Shown here: positions 7,692-12,443 of the stretch, one piece after another
Layout of the letters: each line of letters starts with the position of its first letter
How positions within the stretch are numbered: the stretch's first letter is position 1
Assembly: GCA_949927415.1 (NCBI GenBank)
Contig: CATLFB010000002.1
Span: 62,001-126,000, forward strand
Source: an uncultured Candidatus Melainabacteria bacterium
GTDB taxonomy: Bacteria; Cyanobacteriota; Vampirovibrionia; Gastranaerophilales; Gastranaerophilaceae
Direction of reading: 5' to 3'
Length of the DNA stretch: 64,000 bases
Made by a program: the position numbers and the translations under genes
The notes under the pieces: model-generated
Seen by the model: only the letters and a program-made list of their open reading frames with translations
Databases searched by the model: none
Told to the model about the DNA's origin: nothing

Positions 7692-7719
7692 TTGAAATTT
7701 AAAAAAAATGGGTTATAAT
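7692..7719 (+). promoter_or_regulatory. Strong promoter for antisense RNA
   Basis: TTGAAA, a 16-base spacer and a perfect TATAAT (7714-7719) face right. No plausible protein-coding gene follows in that direction. A terminator lies about 250 bases downstream. Confidence 0.6.
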
Positions 7720-7725
7720 AAAGAA

Positions 7726-7978
7726 AAGGGCGCGCAGGTTGCACACTTCGCTTTGAAGCCCCCTTTATTTGGATTTAAGCGCTAGTATTATTAGCAATAT
7801 TAGTACTAACGCTTTTTCAGTTATACTGAAATCCACTTTATCACCTCCTTTCCTGAAAGTTTTAACAAATTTCAAGTTCGCGCTCTCAGAATTGAAAAGT
7901 GAAAAAGGGCTTGCCCTTAAAATCAACATTAACAAACAAATCCCGCTTATACATCATGTATTTGCGGGATTTATTATT
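7726..7978 (+). ncRNA. Candidate antisense RNA of a type I toxin-like locus
   Basis: The transcript would start about 7 bases after the TATAAT and end at the hairpin AAATCCCGC..GCGGGATTT (about 7938-7975) followed by a T-rich stretch. It covers the whole small peptide gene on the other strand, including the ribosome binding site, so it could block translation by base pairing. Its 5' end can itself fold (AAGGGCGCGC with GCCCCCTTT). The terminator hairpin can also serve dnaB on the opposite strand. Inferred from signals only. Confidence 0.45.
7765..7836 (-). CDS. Small hydrophobic peptide, type I toxin-like
   Basis: A 23-residue frame starts at GTG (7836) behind GAAAGGAGGTGAT, which matches the 16S rRNA anti-Shine-Dalgarno over about 13 bases, with ideal spacing. 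That is by far the best ribosome binding site I saw in the window. The peptide has a short polar start (DFSITEK), a membrane-spanning stretch ALVLILLIILAL and a basic end (KSK). This layout is typical of type I toxins of the TxpA/Fst/holin-like kind, though I cannot assign it to a known family. A terminator-like hairpin follows at 7727-7768, and a convergent RNA is predicted on the opposite strand. Confidence 0.5.
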   Translation of the reverse strand: MDFSITEKALVLILLIILALKSK

Positions 7979-8049: not shown

Positions 8050-9429
8050 CTAGAACGCGTCTGTCTTAATCGGGTTTTTGAATTTGGTGATGTTGCCCTG
8101 GAAGAGAAGTTTTACGGTGCCGACAGAGCCGTTTCTGTGTTTTGCGATGATAATTTCGGATTCACCCTTGTTCTGCGCCTTAATCGCCTCTTCTTCCTCT
8201 TCGCTTTTCTTGTAATATTCGTCACGGTAAATGAACATTACAATGTCGGCGTCCTGCTCAATTGAACCTGATTCACGAAGGTCCGAAAGCATCGGACGTT
8301 TGTCAGTTCTGGATTCTACCGCACGCGACAGCTGAGAAAGCGCAATTACCGGCACATCCAACTCTTTTGCAAGAATCTTCAAACCTCTGGATATTGCCGA
8401 AATCTGCTGCATACGGTCTTCTCTTCCCGAACTTTCCATCAACTGCAAATAGTCGATTAAAATAAGTCCGAGATTCTTTTCCTGCATTTTTAAACGGCGG
8501 CATTTTGCCCTCAAATCAGTAATCGTGCTTCCCGAGGTATCGTCTATATATATCGGCGCCTGGGCAAATGAGTTCATCGCATCCGCAAGTTTTTCCCAGT
8601 CTTTGCTCTGCATATTACCGGTCTTAACCCTTTGCGAATCTATTTCTGCCTCAGAACAAAGCATACGCTGAACCAACTGCTCTTTTGACATTTCAAGAGA
8701 GAATATCGCAACAGGTGTTTTTGCTCTCAATGCAACGTTTTGGGCGATGTTTAGCGCAAATGCGGTTTTACCCATCGCAGGACGTGCCGCAAGAATCAGC
8801 AAATCAGACTTTTGAAGTCCGTTCATCATAGCATCAAGTTCGTAAAATCCGGTCGGCGTTCCCGATAACTCGTCCTTGTGTTCATAGCGGTATTCAATCT
8901 TTTCATAAGTGTTTAAGACCAAATCTTTGACATGAACAAGATCGGTTGTGGCTTTTTTGGAGGCAATATCGAAAATAAGTTTTTCAGCCTGTTCAAGTGA
9001 CTGGTCAATTGGATTAACATCGTATCCAAAAGATACTATTTCGCTGCCGGCGTTTATTAAAGACCTTTTGATTGCTTTTTCCTGAATAATTTTTGCGTAA
9101 TATTCAATGTTTGCCGTGCTTATGGCATTCAGCGCAAGGTCGTTGATAAACGGTCTTCCACCGACAGTTTCAAGCTTTTGCGAATAATCAAGCACGTTTG
9201 AAACTGATACGATATCGATTCTTTCGTTTGTGTTGAAAAGCTGGAGCATGGCTTCATAAATATGCCGGTGCGCCGGCTTGTAAAAGCTTTCGGGCTTTAA
9301 GGTTTCCACAACCTTGGTTATCACAACCGGATTAACCAGAATCGCGCCTATCAATGCCTCTTCGGCTTCCGTGTTCTGCGGGATTAAATGTAAGTCTTTG
9401 TTGTTAGTTTTTTCTTTTACTTGTGCCAT
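8050..9429 (-). CDS. dnaB: Replicative DNA helicase
   Basis: This hexameric 5'-3' helicase unwinds DNA at the fork and recruits primase. The 459-residue protein starts with the N-terminal primase-binding domain (PQNTEAEEALIGAIL near residue 17). The RecA-like motor domain follows, with Walker A ARPAMGKTAF at about 214 and Walker B ILIDYLQLM near 320. The arginine-finger/H4 region (SQLSRAVE, RPMLSDLRESGSIEQDAD) is intact. No intein is present. The gene stands alone, downstream of a divergent intergenic region shared with cinA. Confidence 0.97.
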   Translation of the reverse strand: MAQVKEKTNNKDLHLIPQNTEAEEALIGAILVNPVVITKVVETLKPESFYKPAHRHIYEAMLQLFNTNERIDIVSVSNVLDYSQKLETVGGRPFINDLALNAISTANIEYYAKIIQEKAIKRSLINAGSEIVSFGYDVNPIDQSLEQAEKLIFDIASKKATTDLVHVKDLVLNTYEKIEYRYEHKDELSGTPTGFYELDAMMNGLQKSDLLILAARPAMGKTAFALNIAQNVALRAKTPVAIFSLEMSKEQLVQRMLCSEAEIDSQRVKTGNMQSKDWEKLADAMNSFAQAPIYIDDTSGSTITDLRAKCRRLKMQEKNLGLILIDYLQLMESSGREDRMQQISAISRGLKILAKELDVPVIALSQLSRAVESRTDKRPMLSDLRESGSIEQDADIVMFIYRDEYYKKSEEEEEAIKAQNKGESEIIIAKHRNGSVGTVKLLFQGNITKFKNPIKTDAF

Positions 9430-11873: not shown

Positions 11874-12443
11874 ATGAAAAAAAGTATAATTTTCGTTTTA
11901 ATTTCACTATTATCTTTAACTCTTTTGAGCGCCGGTTTTGCGGTGAAATATTATATTAAAACTCAAAAACTGCAAAATAAAATCGTCAGTTTAGAAGCAA
12001 CAATTTCTGATATGTCTTCCAAAAATGACACGCTTAAAAAAGATAGTGAAATATTAGATACCCGATATGAGAATTTAAAATCAAAGAAGTCCGCGATAGA
12101 AATTATTGCTGCACAAGAGCAGGAATGCCTGAAAAAAGAAAACTATACAACTGCCGGGATGAATCATTGTGTACATATTTCACTCGACAGATTGGAAAAA
12201 GAAATAGAAAAAAATATAACTCTTTTAAAATCAGTTATGACTTTTGAACAATATGAGTTACTGCAAAAATCACAAGAAGCTTGGGAAGATTATAAAAAAG
12301 CTGAAATGACATTGAATCGTGAAACAGTCGGAAATAATTCCGGTACAATATATACAAATATCCTCGCCGGACATCAGTTTTCTATCGTTGAAAAAAGGGC
12401 AAAGGATTTAAGCATTTTATACTCGGAATTAGCAGGAGAATAA
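11874..12443 (+). CDS. Membrane-anchored LprI-like (DUF1311) protein
   Basis: The 189-residue protein starts with one N-terminal membrane anchor (residues 5-26). A coiled-coil stretch of about 45 residues (LEATISDMSSKNDTLKKDSE) follows, then a LprI/DUF1311 domain: CLKKENYTTAGMNHC, then the LxxxQxxWxxYKxAE core. The two cysteines bracketing the first motif probably form a disulfide outside the inner membrane. Family members are secreted, and one mycobacterial member inhibits lysozyme, but the function here is unknown. It lies downstream of tRNA-Ile with its own leader and starts at the ATG at 11874. Confidence 0.75.
   Translation: MKKSIIFVLISLLSLTLLSAGFAVKYYIKTQKLQNKIVSLEATISDMSSKNDTLKKDSEILDTRYENLKSKKSAIEIIAAQEQECLKKENYTTAGMNHCVHISLDRLEKEIEKNITLLKSVMTFEQYELLQKSQEAWEDYKKAEMTLNRETVGNNSGTIYTNILAGHQFSIVEKRAKDLSILYSELAGE

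Follow-up and report, generated by a model that had tools for sequence, protein, structure and literature searches.

The window analysed here is a stretch of 64,000 nucleotides from an uncultured Candidatus Melainabacteria bacterium of the order Gastranaerophilales (assembly GCA_949927415.1, 2.18 Mb in 22 contigs, completeness 99.9%). Between positions 7692 and 7917 it contains a compact element, in which a very small predicted toxin gene on the minus strand is faced by a promoter on the plus strand. The open reading frame (ORF, 7765–7836, minus strand) starts with a GTG codon (7836–7834) and, read in frame from it, encodes the 23-residue peptide MDFSITEKALVLILLIILALKSK, with a hydrophobic core and a lysine at the end. 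It is preceded by an extended Shine-Dalgarno sequence, GAAAGGAGGTGAT (7840–7852, minus strand). The opposing promoter (7692–7719, plus strand) consists of TTGAAA (7692–7697) and TATAAT (7714–7719) separated by 16 nucleotides (nt); it agrees with the consensus at 11 of 12 positions and is the best of eight promoter-like sites in 3 kb. A preliminary description of this DNA had pointed out the peptide gene, its Shine-Dalgarno sequence and this promoter, and all of them exist as described. Folding of the region beats that of dinucleotide shuffles on both strands (z −5.6 for plus and −6.8 for minus), which, together with the recurrence of the peptide gene and the promoter in about 100 diverged copies, indicates that the element is more than a chance arrangement.

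Two transcripts are predicted from this layout. The toxin mRNA of ~198 nt would run on the minus strand from AGGGC at 7917 to a 3′ terminator (7720–7917; fold z −4.7). Its 3′ untranslated region (UTR) and intrinsic terminator, recognised from the fold and from a covarying stem (helix 4), occupy 7720–7764. The putative antidote, an antisense RNA of ~92 nt on the plus strand (7726–7817), is nested in the toxin mRNA and would end at an intrinsic terminator embedded in the ORF (7777–7817), made of a stem-loop at 7777–7814 and a U-tract at 7813–7817.

The predicted peptide and its mRNA

Comparison of the copies establishes that the peptide is conserved. A related peptide stands behind the Shine-Dalgarno sequence in every copy examined from the genus, and GAAAGGRGGTGAT of the latter is near-invariant in a 27-copy genus alignment. 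A covariance model built from 27 copies gave 112 matches in the fetched loci, representing 106 distinct copies. By a first automatic rule, 104 of the 112 matches have a small hydrophobic ORF, and most of those failing the rule can still be read as an ORF whose Shine-Dalgarno sequence, start codon or stop is unusual. With a slightly wider rule, an ORF of 19–41 residues (median 24) is retained in 101 of the 106 distinct copies, so the disrupted frames that the preliminary description would have taken as a refutation are not the pattern found.

Hydrophobicity is retained as well (the maximal 12-residue hydropathy mean is 3.5 across copies), and the C-terminal charge is positive in 91% of copies. 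Of 101 copies, none is open in one of the other two frames of the same strand and 13 are open in the second. Among 67 distinct gene cores the second codon position is the most conserved and the third the least (entropy 0.76, 0.38 and 1.03 bits at positions 1, 2 and 3), the second position being somewhat favoured by the choice of cores by their hydrophobic pattern. The peptide has the general properties of a type I toxin, being shorter than 60 residues and hydrophobic, with one membrane helix and a cationic end. A peptide encoded on the antisense strand was considered and set aside: in 82 of 101 copies one of the reverse frames crosses the ORF without a stop, which is likely a by-product of the palindrome and of T-rich codons, and no Shine-Dalgarno sequence was noticed for it.

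The peptide recalls no known family, as had been proposed, and no significant match was found in Pfam, NCBIfam, PHROGs, PADLOC or Rfam. The peptide matches in the first four were at chance level, profile power being low at such lengths. A tblastn search of the 23-residue peptide against phages gave no match, and 600 stretches of viral contigs selected by back-translated peptide patterns included no confirmed relative. In the Rfam comparison, only two tRNAs in the window passed the gathering threshold and matches with E values up to 10 were chance ones; the antitoxin RNAs OhsC (18.0 bits against a threshold of 50) and OrzO-P (15.8 against 60) stayed at chance level.

The two ends of the predicted toxin mRNA interact over a long distance. 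Its 5′ arm AGGGC (7913–7917) pairs with a 3′ arm GCCCU (7727–7731), which doubles as the base of the toxin terminator. The pairing is present in the consensus structure and in the single-sequence fold of the window mRNA, which corresponds to the closed form, and reading of the copies shows that the arms change together across the order, as AGGAC:GUCCU, AGGCGCAAG:CUUGCGCCU and AGAG:CUCU. A segment of the 5′ UTR (7894–7909) is predicted to pair with the Shine-Dalgarno region, and in 71 of 91 copies the Shine-Dalgarno sequence is less accessible than with its context shuffled (accessibility 0.28 vs 0.37; Wilcoxon p 2e-9), a modest effect. In many other copies a promoter resembling TTGACN-17-TATAAT is found 5–9 nt upstream of AGGG, with at least 10 of 12 consensus positions in 37% of copies against 6.8% of shuffles, suggesting that the mRNA probably starts at this point. 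A motif AAACT...AAATTTG, located 5′ of the Shine-Dalgarno sequence (~7860–7885 in the window), is conserved in most genus copies.

The antisense promoter and the terminator within the ORF

The antisense promoter is found at the same position in 99 of the 106 distinct copies, 87 of them with an exact TATAAT, and its mean score is 10.6 of 12, compared with 8.0 in shuffles. In genus copies identified by blastn both hexamers are present and the spacer is variable. The preliminary description had proposed to ask whether the peptide and the antisense terminator stay together in relatives; the peptide ORF and the antisense promoter travel together through a large multi-copy family. In all ten loci with the whole architecture in the bacterium's own genome, those with unrelated peptides included, the antisense promoter matches 11 of 12 positions, the predicted antisense start lies 33–54 nt past the toxin stop codon, and a terminator is located within the ORF or overlaps it, giving predicted antisense RNAs of 73–111 nt.

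The position of this terminator emerges from a scan of the antisense strand for a hairpin followed by a U-tract, binned by 20 nt from the predicted antisense start. In 70 copies, 66 terminator sites fall at +80 to +120, while other 20-nt bins contain at most 11 each. The hairpin is the ORF segment coding roughly for KALVLILLIILALK, and reversal of the GAA-AAA codons for Glu-Lys yields the U-tract, the lysine codon there being AAA in all 58 cases. Inside the ORF, 91% of 101 copies have an antisense terminator with an energy of −10 kcal/mol or lower; synonymous recoding brings this share to 0%, and terminators on the sense strand of the ORF are found in 4%.

Compensatory changes across the whole structure amount to 68 double-change cells compared with 20 in shuffles (score 0.40 vs 0.19, with slid controls all lower), and are present in the ORF hairpin. 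The strand to which this hairpin belongs is indicated by its imperfect pairs: A·C cells, equivalent to G·U in the antisense RNA, number 59 of 92 expected, while toxin-strand G·U pairs number 17 of 66 and other mismatches 43 of 154. The preference is opposite in the end-to-end pairing, in the start hairpin and in the toxin terminator. Since the model was written in the toxin sense, any bias would work against this outcome. Taken together, the compensatory changes and the uneven use of G·U and A·C assign the ORF hairpin to the antisense strand. The antisense RNA therefore most likely ends inside the toxin ORF near 7817, as a predicted product of ~92 nt. By its position it would be complementary to the toxin 3′ UTR and to approximately codons 7–23 (the last ~17), and not to the Shine-Dalgarno sequence.

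Spread of the family and its sites

The element is a multi-copy family. A blastn search revealed paralogues in the same genome, and the covariance model at E ≤0.1 gave twelve matches there, ten of which, that of the window included, have the whole architecture; the two weakest of these ten (E 0.002–0.004) still have it in full. Unrelated peptides occur among the ten, for example MTKQEVLVIVKNVLVVLGHLILTFASLM, MIEKIIMLLLAFAITVIALKIQL and MDNFNISLFLIFLILYILKNGSKLNS. Six loci of this genome other than that of the window (L217–L222, at C1:119438, C14:7854, C2:343236, C3:205331, C2:399898 and C2:254100) display the same RNA layout with mostly unrelated small peptides, some having antisense terminators of textbook form that lie in the ORF or overlap it.

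Within the genus, blastn found copies in 9 of 14 genomes, up to seven per genome and some in tandem, mostly 68–79% identical. The covariance model places the element in 157 of 288 genomes and 30 of 41 genera of the family, with arrays of up to four copies; across the order, other families included, 37 of 50 genera have it. There was no match outside the order in the class sample. One head-to-tail tandem array of four copies is located at G039 C34 29935–31088 (L193).

When 339 genomes of the phylum were scanned with a spacing pattern, comprising the promoter hexamers, their spacing and a reverse Shine-Dalgarno sequence at a set distance and leaving out the ORF and the terminator, 61 gave matches, every one of them from this family. 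The reversed control and the other Cyanobacteriota sampled gave 0 matches. Of the distinct loci found by the pattern, 26 were examined, and all 26 contain a small ORF with an antisense terminator inside. In a viral collection the pattern matched 16 stretches, 14 without the combination of ORF and terminator and two with both. One of these two, L258 (IMGVR_UViG_3300021400_000707, 12115–12334; covariance model E 5e-12), is a family member on a phage-like contig; its neighbours look like genes for terminase, portal, protease and capsid proteins, with the terminase matching phage terminases. On another viral or prophage contig (L246, 2500–2720), a hydrophobic ORF of 26 residues is accompanied by an antisense promoter and by an in-ORF antisense terminator with a long T tail; the 5′ UTR of this copy is very short.

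In the window the element neighbours the dnaB gene (8050–9429, minus strand), whose product has its close relatives in genomes of Candidatus Gastranaerophilales and Melainabacteria; this places the window in a gut-type member of the Cyanobacteriota that is non-photosynthetic. The interval between dnaB and a PMT-like gene measures 447 bp here and ~160–170 bp in three relatives, in which the element is absent. Conservation at the dnaB site was not found in the named relatives, except for one weak match nearby in L058; the window copy is not tied to dnaB. Sequence reading also reveals a lipA-side flank common to copies in several species. Together with the empty dnaB–PMT sites, this indicates that the loci come and go while some sites persist.

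Interpretation and relation to known systems

The comparative evidence is all in line with the earlier proposal of an undescribed type I toxin-antitoxin locus. Judged from sequence, we put the probability at roughly 0.8 that the locus represents a new class of such loci, distinguished by an antidote terminator within the toxin ORF; it is one member of a class found across the order. It is also likely that this class constitutes an RNA chassis of the Gastranaerophilales as a whole, in which the choice among synonymous codons of the toxin gene encodes the antidote terminator and thereby ties the evolution of coding to that of termination. The chassis would carry at least six unrelated-looking peptide types, with some ten loci in the single genome studied in detail and one or more copies carried by phage-like contigs, and would be the first type I class of the non-photosynthetic Cyanobacteriota.

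In the proposed mechanism, the minus strand would give an mRNA with a strong Shine-Dalgarno sequence for a 23-residue membrane peptide, and the end pairing and the hairpin-held Shine-Dalgarno sequence would keep translation of the full-length form low until processing or refolding takes place. On the plus strand, a constitutive-looking promoter just past the toxin 3′ end would produce the antidote RNA, starting within the toxin terminator and stopping at the intrinsic terminator reversed in the toxin ORF. Duplex formation would begin at the complementary hairpins that the two RNAs share and would probably lead to cleavage by RNase III, to a block of elongation and refolding, or to both; the antidote probably does not act by covering the Shine-Dalgarno sequence directly. 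This route is favoured because of the position of the antidote, opposite the 3′ UTR and codons 7–23, and because of the known antidotes that bind 3′ regions, which act through RNase III (TxpA/RatA) or through refolding (BsrG/SR4) (PMC4147584, PMC12390103). Closure of the toxin mRNA by 5′–3′ pairing is known from Hok and AapA (PMC6733600). Once freed by a presumed physiological trigger, the peptide would lodge in the inner membrane, with arrest or depolarisation of the cell as the outcome.

Several observations weigh against this interpretation. The toxin promoter of the window copy is weak (8 of 12), so this copy may be poorly expressed, and both arms of the long-distance pairing also join local hairpins. 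The ORF-embedded terminators are AT-rich, with GC only at the base, and the U-tract is weak in some copies, for example in the TEELA type. Furthermore, the covariance model includes the promoter and the ORF hairpin, hence their conservation among its matches is partly built in; independent tests are provided by the copies found with blastn, by the synonymous recoding and by the pattern of spacing alone.

The same architecture might serve a small non-toxic membrane peptide, such as a regulator of a membrane complex, with expression damped by the nested antisense RNA. Short single-helix membrane types and many unrelated peptides in the same RNA frame would suit this explanation, which is nevertheless improbable: tight, layered silencing by end pairing, a hidden Shine-Dalgarno sequence and antisense RNA, the number of loci (ten in a genome), their tandem arrays and their patchy occurrence at a given site are all typical of type I toxins and would be odd for a regulator with a single partner, and several unrelated peptides in one chassis disfavour a specific partner. 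The strong promoter and terminator of the antisense strand could instead belong to a functional trans-acting small RNA, the peptide ORF being incidental. This is very unlikely in view of the coding-like variation of the ORF, its codon-preserved length, the near-perfect Shine-Dalgarno sequence and the hydrophobicity kept in 101 of 106 copies. A functionless dispersed repeat, resembling a miniature inverted-repeat transposable element or a repetitive extragenic palindrome, would account for multiple intergenic and palindromic copies that are present or absent at orthologous sites. However, genus copies that are so diverged still possess an ORF, a promoter and a terminator as well as compensatory pairs, terminal repeats of a transposase-like kind were not observed, and the recoding control separates 91% from 0%. 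The mobile-repeat explanation was rejected for this retention of all parts, and hardly any weight is left to it.

A variant of the type I reading concerns the extent of the antidote. The preliminary description placed the peptide gene fully inside the antisense unit, with a strong terminator beyond it. The hairpin in question, AAATCCCGC...GCGGGATTT followed by ATTATTA (7938–7972), does exist between dnaB and the element; it is near-perfect, has a T-rich tail on the plus strand and a stability of −16.8 kcal/mol. Antisense RNA extending to it would cover the whole toxin mRNA and the Shine-Dalgarno sequence, and the AT-rich ORF terminator is likely to be read through to some extent, so both forms could be produced. 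Such a long RNA is nonetheless unlikely as the regular product, for the hairpin is missing from most copies while the better-supported terminator within the ORF is near-universal. The hairpin was consequently set aside as the antisense terminator and the enclosure of the gene was not upheld. The hairpin, found in a minority of copies, lies upstream of the point where the toxin mRNA is predicted to begin; it is probably a transcription barrier, dispensable for the antisense unit. The block ATTAATAATA-TCC, which holds it, is conserved in most genus copies even where the hairpin is absent.

The nested terminator provides a sharp, testable prediction, namely that synonymous recoding should lengthen the antidote RNA. 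The signature of antisense promoter, fixed spacing, Shine-Dalgarno sequence and in-ORF terminator recognises unrelated peptides and could be applied to any genome in search of such loci, and the family is a rich source of short membrane peptides in a gut lineage that is common but has almost no genetics.

According to a 2025 paper, type I systems are known only from Proteobacteria, Firmicutes and Tenericutes, in addition to its own candidate from Microcystis, and the narrow range is blamed on search methods bound to known sequences (PMC12390103). That candidate, MsoT1/MsoA1, is the one reported in Cyanobacteria. Compared by description, it differs from the present locus in its photosynthetic host, in candidate toxins of 39–81 residues and in the two predicted helices of MsoT1; the paper makes no mention of Melainabacteria or Vampirovibrio (PMC12390103). 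No type I system was found for Gastranaerophilales in the open-access literature, nor did it yield a type I toxin whose ORF contains a terminator, the latter being a weak test made with one exact phrase.

Ibs/Sib of Escherichia coli is a repeated family, as is the element described here. The two also have in common a very short hydrophobic single-helix toxin and an antisense RNA opposite the coding region (PMC4147584, PMC8309996). Sib, however, spans the whole ibs coding region and the ribosome-binding site, whereas the antisense RNA of the window is predicted to end at 7817, short of the start codon at 7836. The Bacillus systems TxpA/RatA, BsrG/SR4 and YonT/SR6 are similar in their convergent genes and in an antidote complementary to the 3′ part of the toxin RNA, at a distance from its Shine-Dalgarno sequence (PMC4147584, PMC5848175). 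Their toxins are longer (59 residues in TxpA and 58 in YonT) and the overlap is at the 3′ ends, while here the antidote would lie wholly inside the toxin mRNA and end in the ORF.

The closest design is that of AapA/IsoA from Helicobacter, a multi-copy chromosomal family with a membrane toxin of ~30 residues and an antisense RNA of ~80 nt opposite the small ORF (PMC6733600). Both families have a 5′–3′ long-distance pairing, seen here in the consensus and in the covarying ends, and both have a regulatory signal in the toxin ORF. In AapA/IsoA this signal is the −10 box of the antisense promoter (PMC6733600), whereas here it is the terminator, the promoter being located past the toxin 3′ end; the likeness is one of design. 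Standing outside the named systems, the locus thus appears, from its sequence features, to work like a type I system and to represent a new variant of it.
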